From: Gammaproteobacteria bacterium
Lineage (GTDB): Bacteria; Pseudomonadota; Gammaproteobacteria; GCA-001735895
Length of the DNA: 64,000 nucleotides
Direction of reading: 5' to 3'
Assembly: GCA_029862125.1 (NCBI GenBank)
Contig: JAOTXY010000004.1
Coordinates: 1 to 64,000 of the forward strand
The position numbers and the translations under genes were made by a program. Position 1 is the stretch's first letter, and every line of letters starts with the position of its first letter. Under the pieces are notes generated by a model that saw nothing but the letters and a program-made list of their open reading frames with translations, was not told the DNA's origin and did no database searches. Positions 6,260-15,246 of the stretch are shown in pieces.

Positions 6260-6319
6260 CCATAACAAGCGGTTGCAGTCGGACTTGCAAACCGCTACGC
6301 ACTTTGCGAGGTGTTATGC
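6260..6319 (+). other. attC site 9, degenerate
   Basis: R'' CCATAAC and AGCGGTTGCAGTCGG, then a spacer like the others, ending TTTGCGAGGTGTTATGC. The L' segment CCGCTGATGCG is lost. R' GTTATGC is intact. Confidence 0.75.
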
Positions 6320-6343
6320 GATTTTCTCAGACCTAACAGATAG

Positions 6344-6637
6344 ATGAAGCATTTGTGCCCACATTGTCATGATGAATGCATGTCTACGATGCAAAAGTTA
6401 TTCATGGGTTCGGCATCTTCAAGACCATGCAATAGCTGTGGAAGAGAAGTTACCATTCCGGGGAAGTATTACGTTTTGATGATAGTCGCTTTGGGGTTAC
6501 TTTTTCTTGGTTCACAGATGGTGAAACTGGAGACGATACAAATTTTGATTATAGGATTAGTAATAGCAATTGTATTTTCGCTGATACAGATTTATATCGT
6601 TCCAATTTCAAAGAACAAATTCGACGAACTAAGATGA
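6344..6637 (+). CDS. Zinc-ribbon membrane protein of unknown function
   Basis: 97 residues. An N-terminal zinc ribbon built from CPHC (Cys5, Cys8) and CNSC (Cys29, Cys32) is followed by two transmembrane helices (about residues 42-58 and 63-83) and a short basic tail. Similar zinc-ribbon two-helix proteins are common in bacteria without known function. First of three genes in one cassette; the next starts 45 bp later. Confidence 0.7.
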   Translation: MKHLCPHCHDECMSTMQKLFMGSASSRPCNSCGREVTIPGKYYVLMIVALGLLFLGSQMVKLETIQILIIGLVIAIVFSLIQIYIVPISKNKFDELR

Positions 6638-6682
6638 TCTATATTGTATCGAATTGTGTAACCACGATTAAACGGAGAAATA

Positions 6683-6895
6683 ATGGACATATATGAAAAG
6701 TGGGGATACTCGTTACTATCGATTATTGCCGCAATTTATTTGATTGCTATGTTTGTAGGAATGATAGCGGCCTTTCCGTATGGCCTACTAGGTCTTCTCC
6801 TAATGGCAGGCATTGGGGTTTTACTGGTTAAGGTAGTAAAAGAGCGGATGCAGAATAAAGAGGACGATTACTATTCTAAGGAGGTTGATAAATAA
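6683..6895 (+). CDS. Small membrane protein of unknown function
   Basis: 70 residues with two hydrophobic helices (about 9-28 and 33-50, including FPYGLLGLLLMAGIGVLLV) and a charged C-terminal tail (KERMQNKEDDYYSKE). GGAG lies about 5 bp before the ATG. The stop TAA shares its last base with the ATG of the YbjQ gene (TAATG), a translational-coupling arrangement. The consistent coupling suggests a joint role at the membrane. No family recognised. Confidence 0.7.
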   Translation: MDIYEKWGYSLLSIIAAIYLIAMFVGMIAAFPYGLLGLLLMAGIGVLLVKVVKERMQNKEDDYYSKEVDK

Positions 6896-7221
6896 TGCTT
6901 ATTACTACGCAAGACGAATTTGCGGATCATGACATAGTTGAAACGATAGGTTTAGTCCGTGGCAATACAATAAGAGCCAGGCACATCGGCAAAGATATAC
7001 TAGCCGGATTAAGAACGATAATCGGAGGGGAGATTTCCGAGTACACAAAAATGCTTGCCGAGTCCAGGGAGCAATCAATAGATAGAATGATCGCTGAGGC
7101 TAAGAGTAAAAAGGCGAACGGCGTTGTTGCCATGAGGTTTACCACCTCTCCAGTTATGCAGGGCTCCGCAGAATTGCTAGCTTATGGAACGGCGGTAAGG
7201 ATACGGCCAAAAAATGCCTAA
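6895..7221 (+). CDS. YbjQ family (UPF0145) heavy-metal-binding-domain protein
   Basis: 108 residues clearly in the YbjQ/DUF74 family: an N-terminal MLITTQDEFADHDIVE, then GLVRGNTIRARHIGKD, LRTIIGGEISEYTKML, and KANGVVAMRFTTSP near residue 70. These form homo-pentameric beta-barrel proteins of unknown function. The last gene of a three-gene cassette; its final codons GCC TAA lie in the R'' core of attC 10. Coupled by a 1-bp overlap to the membrane protein before it. Confidence 0.9.
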   Translation: MLITTQDEFADHDIVETIGLVRGNTIRARHIGKDILAGLRTIIGGEISEYTKMLAESREQSIDRMIAEAKSKKANGVVAMRFTTSPVMQGSAELLAYGTAVRIRPKNA

Positions 7222-8108: not shown

Positions 8109-8169
8109 GCCTAACAAGTGCATGCAATCGGGCGCGACAGAGCTGCACCGCTAATGCGAGGCGTTATAG
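8109..8169 (+). other. attC site 11
   Basis: A 61 bp site: R'' GCCTAAC, TGCATGCAATCGG, ACCGCTAATGCG and R' GTTATAG. The next gene begins 3 bp after it. Confidence 0.87.
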
Positions 8170-8172
8170 GTT

Positions 8173-8451
8173 ATGAACAATTCTCCTAAAGAAGATACAA
8201 AATTAACCGATCGACTTGCTGTTGGTGCACTAAGTGGTATCGCAGCATTTTTGACGGCTACATTTATATGGTTTGTCGTTTTCTATTCTCTTTCGATGGT
8301 AAATATAGAGTACCAACCCTCTTTTATATATGTGGTCATCTTCAGTATTCTTATGTTTGTATTGGGCTTCGCAACATTGACTAACTTGGTGTCGAAAATA
8401 TTAGGCGCAATATGGCACTTTCTGTACCGGACTCTTCGAATATGGGAGTAA
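8173..8451 (+). CDS. Two-helix membrane protein of unknown function
   Basis: 92 residues with two long hydrophobic segments (about 18-40 and 52-78) and a short basic end. The ATG is only 3 bp after the attC core and has no ribosome site, so expression would rely on the attC-proximal sequence or a leaderless transcript. First gene of a two-gene cassette; its last codons overlap the start region of the acetyltransferase. Confidence 0.62.
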   Translation: MNNSPKEDTKLTDRLAVGALSGIAAFLTATFIWFVVFYSLSMVNIEYQPSFIYVVIFSILMFVLGFATLTNLVSKILGAIWHFLYRTLRIWE

Positions 8452-9020
8452 GCGGGCTAGATGAGAATTCCAAATTGAAGATAAGGGAATCTACAGAATC
8501 GGATCGCAGCGCAATTGATGCAATACACATGAATGCGTTTGGACAGCCGGAAGGTCAAGAAATCGTGGATCTCGTCAATGACTTGTTAAAAGATGAAACG
8601 GCAAAACCTTTGCTTTCACTGGTGGCAGAGAAAGACGGAAAGTTAGTAGGCCATATACTTTTCACAACGGCACGACTACAACCTGGAAATGAAGAAACCA
8701 TAATTCGAATTCTCGCACCACTCGCGGTTTCAAGCGAAAATCAAGGGGAAGGTATCGGCGGAGGCTTGATTAAGGAAGGTCTGAAACAGTTAGCAGAATC
8801 AGGTGTGGACCTGGTTTTCGTACTGGGCCATCCTCACTATTATCCGAGATTCGGGTTCCAGACTGCAGGTCTTTTAGGGTTTGAAGCTCCACATACAATT
8901 CCGTCGGAGCACGCAGACGCCTGGATGGTTCAAGCATTGAAGACAGGCGGTCTTGCTGGTGAAAAAGGGAGGATTCAATGCTCAAAGATACTAGACCAAC
9001 CTCAACATTGGCGGGAGTAG
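8442..9020 (+). CDS. GNAT family N-acetyltransferase (YhbS-like)
   Basis: About 192 residues. IRESTESDRSAIDAIH opens the GNAT fold; LVGHILFTTA and ILAPLAVSSENQGEGIGGGLIKEGL carry the acetyl-CoA loop (Q-x-x-G-x-G/A variant, QGEGIG); VFVLGHPHYYPRFGF is the typical YhbS strand-helix end. Starts at 8412 or 8442 are both in frame; 8442 gives the shorter overlap with the upstream gene. Substrate unknown. Confidence 0.85.
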   Translation: MGVSGLDENSKLKIRESTESDRSAIDAIHMNAFGQPEGQEIVDLVNDLLKDETAKPLLSLVAEKDGKLVGHILFTTARLQPGNEETIIRILAPLAVSSENQGEGIGGGLIKEGLKQLAESGVDLVFVLGHPHYYPRFGFQTAGLLGFEAPHTIPSEHADAWMVQALKTGGLAGEKGRIQCSKILDQPQHWRE

Positions 9021-9064
9021 AGCCCGCTATGCTCGATCCTTGCCACTGATGCGAAACGCTAGGC
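9000..9064 (+). other. attC site 12, degenerate
   Basis: The right half is recognisable (GCCACTGATGCGAAACGCTAGGC, core GCTAGGC at 9058-9064) and the spacer AGCCCGCTATGCTCGATCC resembles others, but R'' and L'' are eroded (CTCAACATTGGCGGG). Confidence 0.6.
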
Positions 9065-9510
9065 GACTCCACATATATACAAGGAGAGGTTTATCGATTG
9101 TAGCGATCCTTTTTTTGGCATTCTACGCATGGAATGATCGAGAACCAAAGGATCACATTGGAGCTCCAGGCTCGTCCGGGGACTCTATCCTGGAAGAAGC
9201 TTTCGAACAGCGCCAGAGCGATCTTCAGGTACAAGGAAGTGGTGAGATCGTGAAGCTCTTAGCTGACGATAACGACGGTTCCCGCCATCAACGATTTATC
9301 CTGCGGTTGACCTCTGGTCGGACGTTGCTGGTTGCTCACAACATTGACCTGGCACCCAGGATTGCATCCCTGAATACAGGCGATTTTGTGGAGTTCTACG
9401 GAGAGTATGAGTGGAACCAAAAGGGTGGTGTCATTCATTGGACGCACCATGACCCTCAAGGCAGGCATGTATCGGGTTGGTTGAAACACAATGGGAAGAC
9501 TTACCAGTGA
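9049..9510 (+). CDS. DUF3465 family exported protein
   Basis: About 153 residues. After an N-terminal hydrophobic anchor (LSIVAILFLAFYAW) comes the DUF3465 core: VQGSGEIVKLLADDNDGSRHQRFILRL, TLLVAHNIDLAPR, GDFVEFYGEYEWN and GGVIHWTHHDPQGRH. This is an OB-like periplasmic domain of unknown role. The start is unclear. The ATG at 9049 lies within attC 12, while an AAGGAGAGG ribosome site at about 9081-9089 is followed by no ATG/GTG, only TTA, ATC or ATT codons. The native start may have mutated. Confidence 0.78.
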   Translation: MRNARRLHIYTRRGLSIVAILFLAFYAWNDREPKDHIGAPGSSGDSILEEAFEQRQSDLQVQGSGEIVKLLADDNDGSRHQRFILRLTSGRTLLVAHNIDLAPRIASLNTGDFVEFYGEYEWNQKGGVIHWTHHDPQGRHVSGWLKHNGKTYQ

Positions 9511-9603
9511 ATCCGCTCAAGCGGTCATCTAACCAGGCGATGTAGCAGATCTACCTGCTAGTATCTATATTAAAGGTCAAAAACTAATTAAAATTCCTGC
9601 CGG

Positions 9604-9623
9604 GCGCCAACCTACATGCAGTC
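9604..9623 (+). other. Possible half attC at a gene start
   Basis: GCGCCAACCTACATGCAGTC resembles the left half of the local attC consensus (GCGCCTAACAAGCGCATGCAGTC). No right half follows; the ATG inside it opens the next gene. Weaker than the similar junction at 10552. Confidence 0.35.
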
Positions 9624-10065
9624 TTCCACTGTTACCGTAGCTACTATCGGAATAGTTGTCACACTCGTTACGGCGATCGTACTTGGCGGCATAGCATTGT
9701 TTAATACACTGGAATTAGGTCAACTGGGTAATCTTTTTAAGCGCCATACAGTTATGATGCTTGATAAATCGGTAGAAATGGTAGAGCGTTACAAAAACGC
9801 TAAAGGCCAGTATCCAGTATCATTGGAAAACGCAAGAGCCTACCTGAAGGAAGGTGAAATTTACCCAGACCTGGACTTTATGGGTCCAATTAGACTTGGT
9901 GAAAGAGTACGTCATTTTCACTATGAGCAAAGAAACGATGGCGAAGAGTACTATCTTTTTGGAATTGGTCTTGATGGCGACCCCTTTTCAAATGATGATG
10001 TTTATCCTACATCTTCTGCTGTCGATAAGAGTGACGGTTTTAGCAGGCTGGAAATTGGCGCCTAA
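9616..10065 (+). CDS. Membrane-anchored pseudopilin-like protein
   Basis: 149 residues. A hydrophobic N-terminal helix (TIGIVVTLVTAIVLGGIALF) precedes an amphipathic helix, YKNAKGQYPVSLENARAYL, and a C-terminal DGDPFSNDDVYPTSS loop. This order recalls GspG-type pseudopilins (Tyr-Pro after the helix, aspartate-rich C-terminal calcium loop). There is no prepilin peptidase site, so it is only pilin-like. The ATG-CAG-TC start matches the attC left-half sequence. The stop TAA lies in attC 13. Confidence 0.55.
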   Translation: MQSSTVTVATIGIVVTLVTAIVLGGIALFNTLELGQLGNLFKRHTVMMLDKSVEMVERYKNAKGQYPVSLENARAYLKEGEIYPDLDFMGPIRLGERVRHFHYEQRNDGEEYYLFGIGLDGDPFSNDDVYPTSSAVDKSDGFSRLEIGA

Positions 10066-10134
10066 CAAGCGCATGCGATCGGATCACAACACTCGCTACG
10101 CTCACGATTTTGCCGCTGATGCAGCGCTTTAGGC
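10060..10134 (+). other. attC site 13
   Basis: A 75 bp site: R'' GCCTAAC, CGCATGCGATCGG, GCCGCTGATGCAGCGC and R' TTTAGGC instead of GTTAGGC. The G at the cut position is lost, so the site is probably crippled. Confidence 0.82.
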
Positions 10135-10162
10135 AATAGATCTAAAACCCGGAGACGTTAAA

Positions 10163-10542
10163 ATGCATAAAAGTCGGTTAGGAGCATTGATAGTGGATTG
10201 TCAATCTGAAAATTTGTTTGGACATGCCGAGTTCTGGGGAGCGGCCTTAGGATCTGAACCAGAATCCCAAGAAGGGCAAATTGACCAACGCTATATTCGG
10301 CTCAACGGGCGCCTAATGAGGCACAGGTAATTTTACAGAAAGTCGATCACCCGAGCCGGGTTCATTTTGATATAGAAACAGACGACATCGAGGCCGAAGT
10401 TAATAGATTGTTGTCTCTGGGAGCCGAGATTGTAGAAAGAATGGAAAAGTGGGTAGTTATGGAAGCACCAAGCAAACATCGATTTTGTGTTATAGGTCCG
10501 ATACGCCCTGATTTCGAAGAAAAAGCAAACGTGTGGGAATAG
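10163..10542 (+). pseudogene. VOC/glyoxalase-like protein, single-base frameshift
   Basis: ATG at 10163 reads GALIVDCQSENLFGHAEFWG to RYIRLNG at about 10308, then hits a stop 21 bp later. Moving one base back into the frame from 10309 restores APNEAQVILQKVDHPSRVHF, DIEAEVNRLLSLGAEIVER and a normal end at TAG 10542. The whole is a typical about 127-residue glyoxalase_6-type VOC protein (substrate unknown). One G appears to be missing in the run at 10307-10309. Either a real null allele in a decaying cassette or a sequencing error. Confidence 0.85.
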
Positions 10543-10551
10543 TAAAAAATT

Positions 10552-10577
10552 GCCTGACAAGCGCATGCAGTCTGACC
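10552..10577 (+). other. Half attC fused to the ABC-transporter gene
   Basis: R'' GCCTGAC and AAGCGCATGCAGTCTGACC match the left half of the local attC; spacer, L' and R' are absent. The half-site lies 3' of the broken VOC gene, as expected for its cassette, and runs directly into the coding sequence of the ABC ATPase. Confidence 0.78.
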
Positions 10578-11299
10578 ATATCATCCGTCTCGAGAAGCTT
10601 CGTTTTGCCTGGGACGGGCAGTCGACGCCGTTGCTGAACATTACCAGTCTCGATGTGGCACGGGGTGAGCGTTTGTTTGTCCGTGGCGCCAGCGGCATTG
10701 GTAAATCGACGCTGCTGGGACTGATCGCAGGCGTCATAGCAGGTCAGTCCGGTGTGATTGAAGTGCTCGGCCAATCGCTCGATGCAAAAAGCGCCGCCGC
10801 GCGCGACCGGTTTCGCGCCGATCATTTCGGCATTATTTTTCAGCAGTTCAACCTGATCCCTTATCTTAGCGTCATTGAAAACGTAACCCTGGCCTGCGAA
10901 TTCTCGGACGCGCGTCGGCGTAAGGCGATTGCACGCAGTGGCAACACGACCGACGAGGCGTTACGCCTGCTCGAACACCTCGACATGGCAGACACCAGCG
11001 TAATTCACAAGCCGGTCACCGAACTCAGCGTCGGCCAGCAACAGCGCGTCGCCGCAGCCCGCGCGTTGATCGGATCGCCAGAAATCCTGATTGCCGACGA
11101 GCCGACGTCTTCAATGGATGCCGATCGGCGTGCGGCATTTATAGAATTACTTTTCCGTGAGTGCGAGCAGGCGGGAACCACTTTGTTGTTCGTCAGCCAC
11201 GATGCCGGGCTGCAAGGTCTATTCGAACGAGCGATCGAGTTCGACCGGATCAATCGACCGGCGAACGGCGAGCAGCAAGATTTGCAACAAGTCAGCTAA
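10565..11299 (+). CDS. ABC transporter ATP-binding protein (LolD/MacB type)
   Basis: About 244 residues. Walker A GASGIGKST (near residue 45), Q-loop IIFQQFNLIPYLSV, signature ELSVGQQQRVAAA and Walker B EILIADEPTSSMD place it with LolD/MacB/FtsE ATPases, which drive FtsX-like permeases. The ATG at 10565 (or an in-frame TTG at 10550) lies inside a half attC, so the first about five residues come from attC sequence. It is followed 9 bp later by its permease and then a DUF3299 gene. In other gammaproteobacteria such a set commonly accompanies a DUF2796 periplasmic protein and zinc-responsive control; that DUF2796 gene is absent here. Confidence 0.9.
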   Translation: MQSDHIIRLEKLRFAWDGQSTPLLNITSLDVARGERLFVRGASGIGKSTLLGLIAGVIAGQSGVIEVLGQSLDAKSAAARDRFRADHFGIIFQQFNLIPYLSVIENVTLACEFSDARRRKAIARSGNTTDEALRLLEHLDMADTSVIHKPVTELSVGQQQRVAAARALIGSPEILIADEPTSSMDADRRAAFIELLFRECEQAGTTLLFVSHDAGLQGLFERAIEFDRINRPANGEQQDLQQVS

Positions 11300-11308
11300 A
11301 ATCGCGTT

Positions 11309-12616
11309 ATGAATATCGGAGTCCTGGCAATTAAAAGTTTTCGCAATCGCAAGCTCAGCATCGGGCTGGCGATTGCCTCTATCTCGCTGAGTGTCGCCCT
11401 GCTCCTCGGGGTTGAAATCGTGCGCAACCAGGCCAAGTCCAGTTTTGCCAGCACCGTTTCCGGTACCGACCTGATCGTCGGCGCCCGGGGCGGCTCGGTA
11501 AACCTTCTGTTGTATTCAGTGTTTCGCATTGGTAATCCGACCAATAATATCGAGTGGCACAGCTACGACGAGATTCGCAATCTGACCGGTGTAAAATGGA
11601 GTATTCCGTTGTCGATGGGTGATTCGCATCGGGGTTTCCGCGTCATCGGTACCGATGACAATTATTTCGAGCATTACCGCTATGGCCGCGATCGAAACCT
11701 GGCACTGACTAAGGGCGCCTGGTTCGAACACGAAGACGAAACCGTACTAGGTGCAGAGGTTGCGGCCAGCCTGGGTTATCGCCCTGGCGATGAAATCGTC
11801 GTCGCCCACGGCGCAGGTGACGAGAGCTTTATCACCCACGACGAGCAGCCATTTCGTGTGGTCGGCATCCTGGCCAGCACGGGTACACCCGTTGACCGCA
11901 GCGTGCACGTAAGCCTCGACGGCATCGACCGTATGCACAAAGACTGGACAGGCGCCGATGACGATCACAACCACGATCCGCTGTATGCTACAAGTCCCGA
12001 CACCGAACATGACGGGGAAGAAGAGCACGATGAGCATGACGATACGACTGATCACGCTGTCGACCGCAACATCAGCGCCTTTATGCTCGGCCTCGACTCA
12101 CGCGCTGCCGCGATTGGCCTGCAGCGCCGGATCAACCAGTTCGAAGACGAGCCGCTGAGCGCGATCCTGCCTGGTGTTACCCTGCTGGAACTATGGCAGA
12201 TTGTCGGCCTGGTCGAGCACACCCTGCGCGCCATATCGCTGTTTGTCGTCGTTGTCGGCCTGTCTTCGATGTTGATTATCCTGATGACGAGTATCAATGA
12301 GAGGCGCCGGGAAATGGCCATCCTGCGCGCGTTGGGTGCGCGGCCCGGTCATGTTTTTTCGCTGATTCTCGGTGAAGCGATCGCCATAACGCTATCCGGC
12401 ATCGGACTTGGCATAATACTTGTGTACGGAGTTTTTCTGCTTGGCCATGGCTGGATCGCTCGCCAGTTCGGACTGTTTATCGAGATGAACTTGTTAACCC
12501 CGAATCTGGTCTATGTTGTATTATTGGTTATGCTGATTGGCTTTCTGATCGGCCTGATTCCAGGCATACGAATGTATCGTTATTCACTGATAGACGGCAT
12601 GACCATTCGAATTTGA
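11309..12616 (+). CDS. FtsX-like ABC transporter permease with His/Asp-rich loop
   Basis: 435 residues of the MacB/FtsX permease type: one N-terminal helix (about 15-35), a large periplasmic domain, then three C-terminal helices (about 305-330, 350-375, 395-420) around SMLIILMTSINERRREMAILRALGA. The periplasmic domain carries a stretch rich in His, Asp and Glu at about residues 215-250 (DDDHNHDP, EEEHDEHDDTTDH), a likely divalent-metal-binding loop. Works with the ATPase just upstream. A role in zinc or another metal is inference from this loop and from the DUF3299 neighbour. Confidence 0.88.
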   Translation: MNIGVLAIKSFRNRKLSIGLAIASISLSVALLLGVEIVRNQAKSSFASTVSGTDLIVGARGGSVNLLLYSVFRIGNPTNNIEWHSYDEIRNLTGVKWSIPLSMGDSHRGFRVIGTDDNYFEHYRYGRDRNLALTKGAWFEHEDETVLGAEVAASLGYRPGDEIVVAHGAGDESFITHDEQPFRVVGILASTGTPVDRSVHVSLDGIDRMHKDWTGADDDHNHDPLYATSPDTEHDGEEEHDEHDDTTDHAVDRNISAFMLGLDSRAAAIGLQRRINQFEDEPLSAILPGVTLLELWQIVGLVEHTLRAISLFVVVVGLSSMLIILMTSINERRREMAILRALGARPGHVFSLILGEAIAITLSGIGLGIILVYGVFLLGHGWIARQFGLFIEMNLLTPNLVYVVLLVMLIGFLIGLIPGIRMYRYSLIDGMTIRI

Positions 12617-12622
12617 AACCCC

Positions 12623-13306
12623 GTGAGAAGCGTAAAAATGACGAAAAACGGATACCTGGCCGCGATTGCGGTTGTCACGAGCCTGCTGCTCAGTAGCGTT
12701 AGTACCGCAGGCGAGCCCCGGGAAATTACCTGGGACGACCTGGTGCCCGCCGAGGCACAGTTCGATGACGCATTCACCAGGCTGGATGATGACACGCTCT
12801 TCGAACTTAGCATGGTTGCTGGAGTTCGGGATCGGCTCGATGCGGGGATGGAAATCGATGAGAAAACGCTCGCCGGCCATCATGAACGCACCAGGAAGCT
12901 GGTTGACGATGGTGTCGATGTCGATGGGCTGATCGCAATGCGAGACGAAATCACCCAGGAGCGCATCGCCAAGACCCGCCTCGCCAACGAGGCCCTGGAC
13001 GGCAAACCGGTTCGGATTCCAGGCTATCTGCTGCCGCTAGAATTCGACGGCGACAAGGTCACCGAATTCCTGTTGGTGCCCTATGTTGGCGCTTGTATCC
13101 ACACTCCGCCGCCGCCACCCAACCAGATCGTTCACGTCAAGAACGACGAGGCATACACAACCGACGGCGGACTGTATACGCCGGTGTGGGTAAACGGGCT
13201 GATGAAAACCGAACAGAGTCAGTCCAACCTGGAATTTATCGACGGTTCGTCAGATATCCCCAGTGCCTATACGCTCGAGGCGGAATCCGTTGAGCCATAC
13301 GAGTAA
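12623..13306 (+). CDS. DUF3299 family periplasmic protein
   Basis: 227 residues with a signal peptide (YLAAIAVVTSLLLSSVSTAG) and the DUF3299 core: REITWDDLVP, then RIPGYLLPLEFDG and FLLVPYVGACIHTPPPPPNQIV near residues 145-175. That conserved Cys-Ile-His-Thr and proline run is the family's hallmark. Function unknown; the family is usually encoded beside metal-type ABC transporters, as here. Third gene of the operon, 6 bp after the permease. Confidence 0.9.
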   Translation: MRSVKMTKNGYLAAIAVVTSLLLSSVSTAGEPREITWDDLVPAEAQFDDAFTRLDDDTLFELSMVAGVRDRLDAGMEIDEKTLAGHHERTRKLVDDGVDVDGLIAMRDEITQERIAKTRLANEALDGKPVRIPGYLLPLEFDGDKVTEFLLVPYVGACIHTPPPPPNQIVHVKNDEAYTTDGGLYTPVWVNGLMKTEQSQSNLEFIDGSSDIPSAYTLEAESVEPYE

Positions 13307-13460
13307 ACGGCGTCTCTCTGCAATATTCCTGTTTACACGGGAACAACTTGGTCCTTGATTTGCAACTGTCTGTTGCGAGTCGGTTATTGCGGTTCAGGGC
13401 AGATTAACGAAGGCACTCTACTCGCAGCTTGTAGTCCCACGCAACTAATAGCAAAATATC
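13307..13460. other. Intergenic stretch between DUF3299 gene and attC 15
   Basis: 154 bp with no open frame of note and no strong hairpin. It is the spacer between the GC-rich transporter operon and the next attC, longer than in the other cassettes. Confidence 0.5.
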
Positions 13461-13522
13461 GCTTAACAAGCGCATGCAGTCGGACCTGGCCTACGGCCAG
13501 GCCGTTGATGTAATCGTTAGCT
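13461..13522 (+). other. attC site 14
   Basis: R'' GCTTAAC, CGCATGCAGTCGG, a hairpin CCTGGCC/GGCCAGG, CCGTTGATGTAAT (worn L') and R' GTTAGCT. It closes the about 2.9 kb segment holding the transporter operon. Confidence 0.83.
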
Positions 13523-13545
13523 GTACAAATGATGCGTAATTGTCC

Positions 13546-14313
13546 ATGGCCTCAAAAAGAAAAGACCAAATTTGCACATTACTCAAAGGCATTGAAACTG
13601 GTGATGGGGCATCGGTCGCCGTGGTTAATCCTGACAAGTACATCCAGCATAATCCTCAGACTCACGAAGGAGGAGAGGGCCTGGTGGCACTGTTCAAAAG
13701 ACTCTCCAAGAGCTCGCCCCGCGTCAATATCGTGCGCATCTTCTCGGATGGCGACTATGTATTTGCCCACACTGAATACGACTTTGACACTTCAAGGGTG
13801 GGCTTTGAAATCTTTCGCTTCGAGGGTGACCTCACCGTTGAGCATTGGGACAATATCCAGCCGAGGGAAGGACCCAACCCCTCCGGTCATTCGATGGTTG
13901 ATGGGCCAACCGAAGTAACCGACCTCGATAGAACCGAACCCAATCGGGAAATCGTGCGCTCCCTTGTCGAAGACGTCCTTATCAATGGCCAACTCGACAA
14001 ACTGGGGCATTACATTGACGACAAATCCTATTGCGAACATAACCCGCGTATCGGAGATGGCCTGTCGGCGCTACGCTCGGCGTTTTCTGATCCAATGTCT
14101 AACGGCGGCATCACTATAAAATACGACAGAATGCATCGTATTCTGGCAGAGGGAAATTTTGTGCTTACTGTCAGTGAAGGTTCTGTAAATGACGTGAACT
14201 CCTCGTTCTTTGACCTTTTCCGGGTTGTCCATGGCAAGCTTGTAGAACACTGGGATACGACCGAGGCGGTGCCTCCGCGCAGCGAATGGAAGAACGATAA
14301 CGGCAAATTTTAA
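13546..14313 (+). CDS. Tandem SnoaL-like (NTF2-fold) protein
   Basis: About 255 residues made of two NTF2/SnoaL-like domains (about 5-115 and 130-250). Each holds the pattern of a Tyr/His-N-P strand (YIQHNPQTHEG; YCEHNPRIGDG), a central HRI/IVRIFSDGDYVFAH strand, and a closing VEHWD motif (TVEHWDNIQ; LVEHWDTTE). Members bind small hydrophobic ligands or act as cyclases/isomerases; the substrate is unknown. ATG at 13546 is preferred to the in-frame TTG at 13540. First gene of a two-gene cassette. Confidence 0.85.
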   Translation: MASKRKDQICTLLKGIETGDGASVAVVNPDKYIQHNPQTHEGGEGLVALFKRLSKSSPRVNIVRIFSDGDYVFAHTEYDFDTSRVGFEIFRFEGDLTVEHWDNIQPREGPNPSGHSMVDGPTEVTDLDRTEPNREIVRSLVEDVLINGQLDKLGHYIDDKSYCEHNPRIGDGLSALRSAFSDPMSNGGITIKYDRMHRILAEGNFVLTVSEGSVNDVNSSFFDLFRVVHGKLVEHWDTTEAVPPRSEWKNDNGKF

Positions 14314-14377
14314 AGCTGAACTGAATCATTGGTACAATCTTCTCAGAAGATTCGAATAAACACAGGAGCATACAAAG

Positions 14378-14740
14378 ATGATCAAATTTGTTATGTGTAT
14401 AACACGGCACCCGGACATGTCTCGCGAAGAATTCATGGATTACTGGATGAATAAACATGGCCCATTCTTCATGCAAAACGCTGCTGCCATGAGGGCCAAA
14501 AAATATGTGCAATCTCAAACCATAGACACCCCTTTGAACGAAGGGCTGAGGAGTTCGCGGGGAATGCAGCCTGAATATGATGGCGTCGCCGAGGTGTGGT
14601 TTGAATCGGAGGAAGAGCTGATGGCAGGAATGAGCTCACCGGAAGGCCAGAAGTTAGGTGCCGCGCTGCTGGAAGATGAGGGAAATTTTATCGATCACTC
14701 AAAATCCTCGGCATTCATTGTCAAGGAGCATGAATTATAA
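14378..14740 (+). CDS. EthD domain protein
   Basis: 120 residues of the ferredoxin-like dimeric alpha-beta barrel EthD family: IKFVMCITRHPDMSREEFMDYW, KHGPFFMQNA, KKYVQSQTID, then VAEVWFESEEELMAGM and FIDHSKSSAFIVKEHE. EthD proteins support degradation of ethers and other compounds by unknown chemistry. ACAGGAG upstream is a good ribosome site. Second gene of its cassette, 64 bp after the SnoaL-like gene. Confidence 0.88.
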   Translation: MIKFVMCITRHPDMSREEFMDYWMNKHGPFFMQNAAAMRAKKYVQSQTIDTPLNEGLRSSRGMQPEYDGVAEVWFESEEELMAGMSSPEGQKLGAALLEDEGNFIDHSKSSAFIVKEHEL

Positions 14741-14742
14741 GC

Positions 14743-14815
14743 AGTTAACGAGCGCATGAAGGTCGACAAGATGCCCGCTACGCGAGCACTTTACCGCTAA
14801 TACGATGCGTTATGA
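14743..14815 (+). other. attC site 15
   Basis: A 73 bp site: R'' AGTTAAC, CGCATGAAGGTCG, ACCGCTAATACG and R' GTTATGA. The arms carry several changes but all four elements are present. Confidence 0.83.
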
Positions 14816-14846
14816 GTTTGATCAACACGACGACGGTATAAAAAGC

Positions 14847-15176
14847 ATGGGAACTGTAACAAATATCACACAGGTCAAATTTTCCGTTGGCGAGTTGGTA
14901 CATCATCGCCTTTTTGACTATCGCGGCGTCATTGTAGATGTCGATCAAGATTTTCAGGCAACGGATGAATGGTACGAAGCAGTCGCTAAGTCTCGCCCTC
15001 CGAAAAATAAGCCCTGGTACCACGTTTTAGTGCATGGAAGTGATCATTCTACGTATGTCGCTGAACAGAATTTAGAGCCAGATGATATTCTGGAATCAAT
15101 CAATCACCCCATGGTGGAACACTTCTTTACTGTGTTTAAAGACGGGAGGTATGTGCGTGTCGACCGGGACAACTAA
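14847..15176 (+). CDS. hspQ: HspQ-like protein (YccV-like domain)
   Basis: About 109 residues. QVKFSVGELVHHRLFDYRGVIVDVD, PWYHVLVHGSDHSTYVAEQNLE and HFFTVFKDGRYV match HspQ/YccV, a small heat-shock protein that binds hemimethylated DNA and acts as a specificity factor of the Lon protease in E. coli. An in-frame ATG at 14805 lies within attC 15 and is less likely than ATG 14847. Unusual to find an HspQ homologue as a cassette gene. Confidence 0.88.
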   Translation: MGTVTNITQVKFSVGELVHHRLFDYRGVIVDVDQDFQATDEWYEAVAKSRPPKNKPWYHVLVHGSDHSTYVAEQNLEPDDILESINHPMVEHFFTVFKDGRYVRVDRDN

Positions 15177-15186
15177 CCTGGAATCT

Positions 15187-15246
15187 CCCGGCAAGTGCAT
15201 GCCGTTGGGCCCAGCAAAGCTGGTTCACTGATGCCAGGCATTGTGA
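15187..15246 (+). other. attC site 16, degenerate
   Basis: CCCGGCAAGTGCATGCCGTTGGGCCC, hairpin CCAGCAAAGCTGG, then TTCACTGATGCCAGGCATTGTG. The layout is that of the array's sites, but the R'' core is lost and R' reads CATTGTG. Confidence 0.65.

Follow-up and report, generated by a model that had tools for sequence, protein, structure and literature searches.

A three-gene operon of chromosomal character lies between half an attC site and a complete attC site in the cassette array of a chromosomal integron. On balance, we lean towards a history in which this operon, of the Zrg type and lacking ZrgA, was already in the array when the host genome (G000) and a relative (G030) separated. It would most likely have come in as a large multi-gene cassette, or as part of one, with the attC at 13458-13525 as its end. 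A deletion at microhomology would then have removed the stretch from the middle of the attC of the preceding VOC-family cassette to the first codons of the ABC gene. The R''-L'' part of that attC would have been left in frame with the ABC gene, which would now start at a codon of the attC remnant. Recombination at the half site is no longer expected, so that the VOC remnant and the operon would be mobile only jointly, via the downstream attC. With both parents of the joint identified, the locus suggests how a single small deletion within an attC could fix an operon in what had been a mobile neighbourhood of cassettes, a relic of array decay that is unusual yet understandable.

A chromosomal-type operon within an integron cassette array

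The window (the whole stretch of DNA analysed, 64,000 nucleotides) is contig C8 of draft genome G000 (3.70 Mb, 188 contigs, 91% complete). Its first 18.5 kb is the cassette array of a chromosomal integron and the remainder is backbone. The integron integrase is intact in the same genome on contig C143 (421 bits; cut-off 265), whose sequence runs on collinear with G030 beside the array of that genome. We scored attC sites with a covariance model trained on 14 other attCs of G000 and G030, leaving out both sites that flank the operon.

The operon (10574-13306, forward strand, as are all window features below) follows the Zrg gene order of ABC ATPase, MacB-like permease and DUF3299. It encodes an ABC transporter ATPase of the ZrgC/PA4064 type (10574..11299; PF00005; 76% amino acid identity to G020), an FtsX/MacB-type permease of the ZrgB/PA4065 type (11309..12616; PF02687 and PF12704) and a DUF3299 protein of the ZrgE/PA4066 type (12638..13306; PF11736, E = 5.5e-39; PDB 4hsp, E = 2.4e-25). 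Walker A and signature motifs are present in the ATPase. In the structure model of the permease (42 sequences; pLDDT 79.5), we observed a MacB-type fold, and its best PDB matches by Foldseek were MacB (5gko, E = 2.9e-16) and LolCDE.

The GC content of the operon is 0.563 (GC3 0.65-0.69), compared to 0.438 and 0.472 for the array on its two sides and 0.538 for the chromosomal backbone. Domains, GC content and attC model scores confirm a preliminary description of this DNA, which had proposed a chromosomal-type three-gene operon between a half and a complete attC. That description also considered a resident chromosomal operon, next to the array and joined to it by deletion. The chromosomal GC and codon character would fit such an origin, as would the chromosomal position of homologous operons in relatives. 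We nevertheless regard it as highly improbable: cassettes lie on both sides of the operon in an order conserved in G030, whose array begins with a degenerate intI, and no relative was found to carry the operon at that backbone position, or in the same place with the same 5' end, without an array.

Origin of the half attC and position of the joint

The operon is preceded by a VOC-family gene cassette (10129..10548), whose gene is broken by a 1-base deletion near 10309, and then by a half attC (10549..10572) that retains R''-L'' and is missing L' and R'. The half attC reached only 24 bits in the covariance model; the attC upstream of the VOC cassette (10057..10137) reached 57.7 bits. Compared to shuffled sequences, the strand of the half attC folded no better (z +1.4), whereas the complete attC downstream of the operon folded better (z -3.6).

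The bases that follow the crossover G of one attC complement the R'' of the integron cassette that begins there. We observed agreement at 6-7 of 7 variable bases in 8 of the 18 testable segments of the array, compared to 2% of mismatched pairings. The start of the VOC cassette, GGCAATA (after GTTA), agrees with the R'' of the half site (reverse complement GGCAATT) at 6 of 7 bases (null P ~0.02). An intact VOC cassette is present in G020 (G020:C7, L181; 85% DNA identity over 10129-10576), where it ends in a full attC (90 bits, covariance model). The start/R'' match and the intact G020 cassette together assign the half attC to the VOC cassette before it.

Homology to the VOC cassette of G020 stops at 10576 and homology to the ABC gene of the G020 operon begins at 10574. 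We therefore placed the joint between attC and operon at 10572..10576, with 1-4 bases of microhomology. Judged against the native ABC starts of G022 (TTG CCT GAT...) and G020 (ATG ACA TTG CCC GAA...), ~5-11 bases of the native coding start would have been lost. On the sequence evidence, a deletion at microhomology made the joint and cost the operon no more than the region of its native start codon. This agrees with the preliminary description, in which half an attC, joined by deletion in one of the two options offered there, supplies the first codons of the operon: an in-frame ATG lies at 10565 and the joint at 10572-10576.

We found the left joint in G000 only (one metagenome-assembled genome), and a draft of 188 contigs could in principle contain an assembly chimera at exactly this point. 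Such an artefact is very unlikely. A usual k-mer chimera would need more than the 1-4 bases of overlap present here, the contig and G030 are collinear to the left and right of the operon, and the 3' part of the operon and the same right junction occur independently in G030. Two further accounts of the joint were rejected. In one, the half attC was an 18-bp insertion into the native start (with 'TTGCCTGAC' as the native ABC start; the G022 operon begins TTGCCTGATCCC), which fails because the same bases complement the VOC start and end the intact VOC cassette of G020. In the other, the joint was made by the integrase; it is not a normal IntI product, since the break lies in L'', away from the G/TT crossover of R'.

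In fused cassettes, the truncated attC of one cassette runs directly into the coding region that follows. In the fused blaGES-1/aacA4 cassettes, the cut attC has lost its function as a substrate, and the two genes are mobilized together through the next attC (PMC4670013). As in that case, the attC of the first cassette is cut here and the next coding region is joined to the remnant. The blaGES-1/aacA4 fusion combines two resistance genes of a class 1 integron, neither of which has lost coding sequence, whereas here a 2.7-kb three-gene chromosomal-type operon lies in a sedentary array behind a gene that is already dead, and the attC remnant appears to supply the ABC start codon. Fused cassettes are thus already known (PMC4670013), as are chromosomal genes in Vibrio cassettes, where cassettes carry genes with non-integron chromosomal homologues (PMC1382264). 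The window resembles the Vibrio case in that array genes have chromosomal homologues, and differs in that a whole operon is involved and its left boundary is destroyed. Within the literature that we searched, there is no precedent for an insert of this size that is a whole operon, for a joint with both parents exactly identified, for a start codon derived from an attC or for a Zrg branch without ZrgA.

The R' crossover base of the attC at 10057..10137 is altered (window 10128, TTTAGGC; CTTTAGGC compared to CGTTAGGC in the others), which probably inactivates this site as well. The segments at 178-1235, 6313-7220 and 8163-10064 contain several ORFs each and likewise have starts that do not complement their R'', a pattern that the loss of internal attCs would produce; they are probably further fused cassettes. 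The start of ORF 9616, ATGCAGTC, resembles an attC L'' arm. We rejected it as a second attC-derived start because the preceding GGCGCCA matches the expected start of its own cassette. The VOC cassette of G020 (L181:1450-1950, minus strand) begins CAGCTG/TTAGGC with no attC directly upstream and a tRNA-like gene close by, and is perhaps an insertion at a secondary (attG-like) site.

Start codon, expression and state of the genes

The ABC frame is open to 11299 from either TTG 10550 or ATG 10565. The ATG (10565..10567) belongs to the L'' arm that remains of the attC and shares the reading frame of the ABC gene (MQSDHIIRL...); a start there gives a protein of near-native length (MQSDHIIRL compared to MTLPEHIISL). 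By sequence, this ATG can stand in for the lost native start. We did not find a Shine-Dalgarno sequence before either in-frame start (ATG 10565, TTG 10550), and a scan of this strand upstream of the operon found no sigma-70-like promoter. Expression of the operon is therefore doubtful.

We observed that all three operon frames are open. Changes unique to G000 and to G020 numbered 17 and 20 in the ABC gene and 31 and 25 in the permease gene, with no excess in G000. Between the array copies of G000 and G030, the DUF3299 gene had a dS of 0.12, a dN of 0.020 and a dN/dS of 0.16, values that place this gene under purifying selection in the array. In a neutral simulation, stop-free frames had P values of 0.06-0.39, so the absence of stops alone is weak evidence.

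By whatever route it entered, the fused operon might, like the G030 copy, be debris that no longer functions and is being lost, and we give this a substantial though minority weight. The upstream VOC gene is frameshifted and the attC at 10057 is damaged; G030 has lost the ABC gene and most of the permease gene; and no Shine-Dalgarno sequence or promoter was found. Three open frames with no relative-rate excess, the Walker A and signature motifs of the ATPase and the constraint on DUF3299 argue against debris.

The right end and the route of entry

The operon segment ends in a complete attC (13458..13525; 44.3 bits, E = 1.2e-9), whose R' is part of the SnoaL cassette that comes next. Entry as a large cassette is the simplest reading, given the genuine attC and the cassette start downstream of the operon. 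A start that complements the segment's own R'' was not found: the expected start TTAAGCGATA is missing, and the preceding attC is cut at 10572. The cassette start of the segment is lost in both G000 and G030. For this reason, and given the gap described below, we treat an insertion between or into cassettes as a serious competitor.

The distance from the last stop codon to the attC is 151-152 bp, compared to -8 to +33 in 17 other cassettes, an outlier among the 18. The intervening non-coding tail (13307..13457) has a GC content of 0.48, intermediate between array and operon; it is present in G000 and G030 and had no homologue outside these two genomes. For the very large cassette envisaged in the preliminary description, the complete attC that closes the segment speaks in favour, and the lost start and atypical 151-bp gap speak against.

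These features would also suit an operon that was never a cassette and instead arrived by an illegitimate or transposon-like insertion into an existing cassette, of which the tail at 13307-13457 would be the 3' remnant and the site at 13458 the attC. The left joint would then have formed at insertion or later. The stop-to-attC distance (152 compared to -8 to +33), the intermediate GC content of the tail, the position of both operon ends away from an integrase crossover point and the variable location of the operon between species all favour an insertion. We noticed no target duplication, IS or terminal repeats, however, and the tail has no homologue outside G000 and G030 that would identify the host cassette; a native 3' flank captured along with the operon would look identical. 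We regard the insertion as unlikely, though it carries appreciable weight, and retain entry as or within a large cassette as the preferred explanation.

The operon in related genomes

G030 C1 contains the orthologous array, with shared cassettes in the same order and a backbone that is 92-97% identical; its intI is broken into pieces (L163, G030:C1:71863-72575), whereas that of G000 is intact (C143). Window 12476-15202 aligns at 95% to G030:C1:81727-84454. The alignment covers the part of the operon retained in G030 (12476..13306; permease codons 390-435 and DUF3299), the tail and the complete downstream attC. In G030, the retained part follows immediately on cassette sequence whose match to the window ends at 10020, and a separate 2.46-kb deletion took the ABC gene and most of the permease gene. 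An orthologous array with the 3' third of the operon and the same downstream attC indicates that the arrival of the operon in the array predates the split between G000 and G030.

The window cassette at 165-757, with a HAD-type hydrolase frame at 191-781, is 72% identical to a relative at G030 C1:84491-85083. This relative occupies another position in the G030 array, where the window carries another segment.

Neither G000 nor G030 has a copy of this clade other than the one in its array. The locations in other species of the genus are unrelated to one another. In G020, the operon lies beside HNH/terminase-like genes and a tRNA fragment; in G022, it lies beside a frame read from the sequence as an AraC-like regulator; and in G017, G028 and G015, the remnant lies beside a conserved 'gene X'. 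Between G000 and G020, dS was ~1.0 for the ABC and permease genes compared to 0.46 for the chromosomal gene X. Between G020 and G017/G028, dS was 0.47 for DUF3299 compared to 0.90-1.02 for gene X in the same pairs. These contrasts suggest that the operon copies were not simply inherited from a common ancestor and have probably moved between species. A search of plasmids returned only homologues of <60% identity, and a search of viral contigs returned none.

A Zrg-type branch without ZrgA

The preliminary description had noted that the DUF2796-type partner (ZrgA) is gone and had taken this as consistent with a deletion. A ZrgA gene lies near 83 of 85 other operons, at a distance upstream of the permease that roughly matches an ABC gene; one of the two exceptions (L044) begins at a contig edge. 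In the clade of the window, ZrgA was absent upstream of the operon in all three members with upstream sequence (window, G020, G022). PF10986, the DUF2796 family, was not found in the whole (incomplete) genomes of G000, G020, G022, G013, G005, G028 and G015. It is present in G030, where the ZrgA-linked transporter sits elsewhere. The absence noted in the window thus stands, and its use as a sign of deletion does not: we rejected loss of DUF2796 through array deletion because the closest operons outside arrays (G020, G022) also lack ZrgA. These data suggest that ZrgA absence is a property of the clade.

The periplasmic domain of the window permease carries a His/Asp/Glu-rich loop (11939..12070) of 44 amino acids, with 6 His and 17 Asp/Glu, which sets it apart from ZrgA-linked permeases. 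Loops in the clade (window, G020, G022, G013) span 32-65 residues with 4-6 His and up to 20 Asp/Glu, whereas the loop in the permeases of the 83 ZrgA-linked operons has at most 29 residues (median 27; His mean 0.66, maximum 4). ZrgA absence and the His-rich permease loop co-occur. In V. cholerae ZrgA, a His-rich loop is a hallmark; the protein is required and its loop is not essential (PMC9820375). By analogy, we infer that the permease loop may replace ZrgA, probably acting as the metal-binding element that ZrgA provides elsewhere. ATP hydrolysis in the cytoplasm probably drives the MacB-type periplasmic domain, as in ZrgBC and PA4064-PA4065.

Vibrio zrgABCDE has been described as a Zur-controlled zinc system (PMC9817125). 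The window operon shares with Vibrio Zrg (PMC9817125, PMC9820375) an ABC ATPase, a MacB-like permease and DUF3299 (ZrgE) in one operon, and its permease is ~50% identical to Zrg permeases. Unlike Vibrio Zrg, the operon and the G000 genome are without ZrgA. The native promoter region has been lost at the window operon. P. aeruginosa PA4063-PA4066 has been described as a MacB-type exporter of cobalt-pyochelin (PMC11481552). It shares with the window operon a two-polypeptide MacB (ATPase and permease) of the same fold and a PA4066/DUF3299 partner; the PA4063 (ZrgA) partner is missing from the window operon. Transport direction and substrate are disputed even in these model systems, and by analogy we claim here only a MacB-type machine that may be linked to metal stress.

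A more far-reaching version combines these elements: the whole operon would have been taken into a sedentary array as one cassette and fixed there when half an attC disappeared, its new start being the conserved ATG of the L'' arm (...GCGCATGCAGTC...), and would represent a ZrgA-independent Zrg branch with the metal-binding element built into the permease. We put this forward tentatively, as possible and short of likely.

Loss of the transporter part and retention of DUF3299

DUF3299 was kept after loss of the transporter in G030, with a permease stub in G017, G028 and G015, and alone in G002. Homologues of PA4063/PA4066 have been called invariably associated with the transporter (PMC11481552); the DUF3299 genes that relatives keep without the transporter contradict this, and the window operon has no ZrgA. 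The analysis exposes a ZrgA-less Zrg/PA4063-4066 branch with a His-rich permease loop together with DUF3299-only lineages, both of which bear on the roles of the MacB-type transporter and of DUF3299 in zinc stress.

The chromosomal remnants in G017 (L046:709-1530), G028 (L047:4247-5068, minus strand) and G015 (L034:3-766, minus strand) consist of a permease stub from codon ~390 and an intact DUF3299 gene. In the G030 array, where the deletion was an independent event, its end lies no more than ~10 bases from that permease codon (~390). We scanned the 3' end of the permease gene for a promoter that might explain the shared endpoint and found none. At G030 L033:5707-6555, the stop of a permease stub is changed from TGA to TCA, so that the stub (the last TM helix) and DUF3299 form one open frame; the stub and DUF3299 of G028 likewise share a single frame. 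The G002 gene (L197:1492-2166, minus strand) is an orphan DUF3299 with 60% identity and no permease or ABC remnant nearby. In G029 (L035:5930-6739, minus strand), ABC codon 63 is joined to permease codon 324, with IS-like repeats and runs of N on the flanks, a junction that points to a third independent decay of the transporter part.
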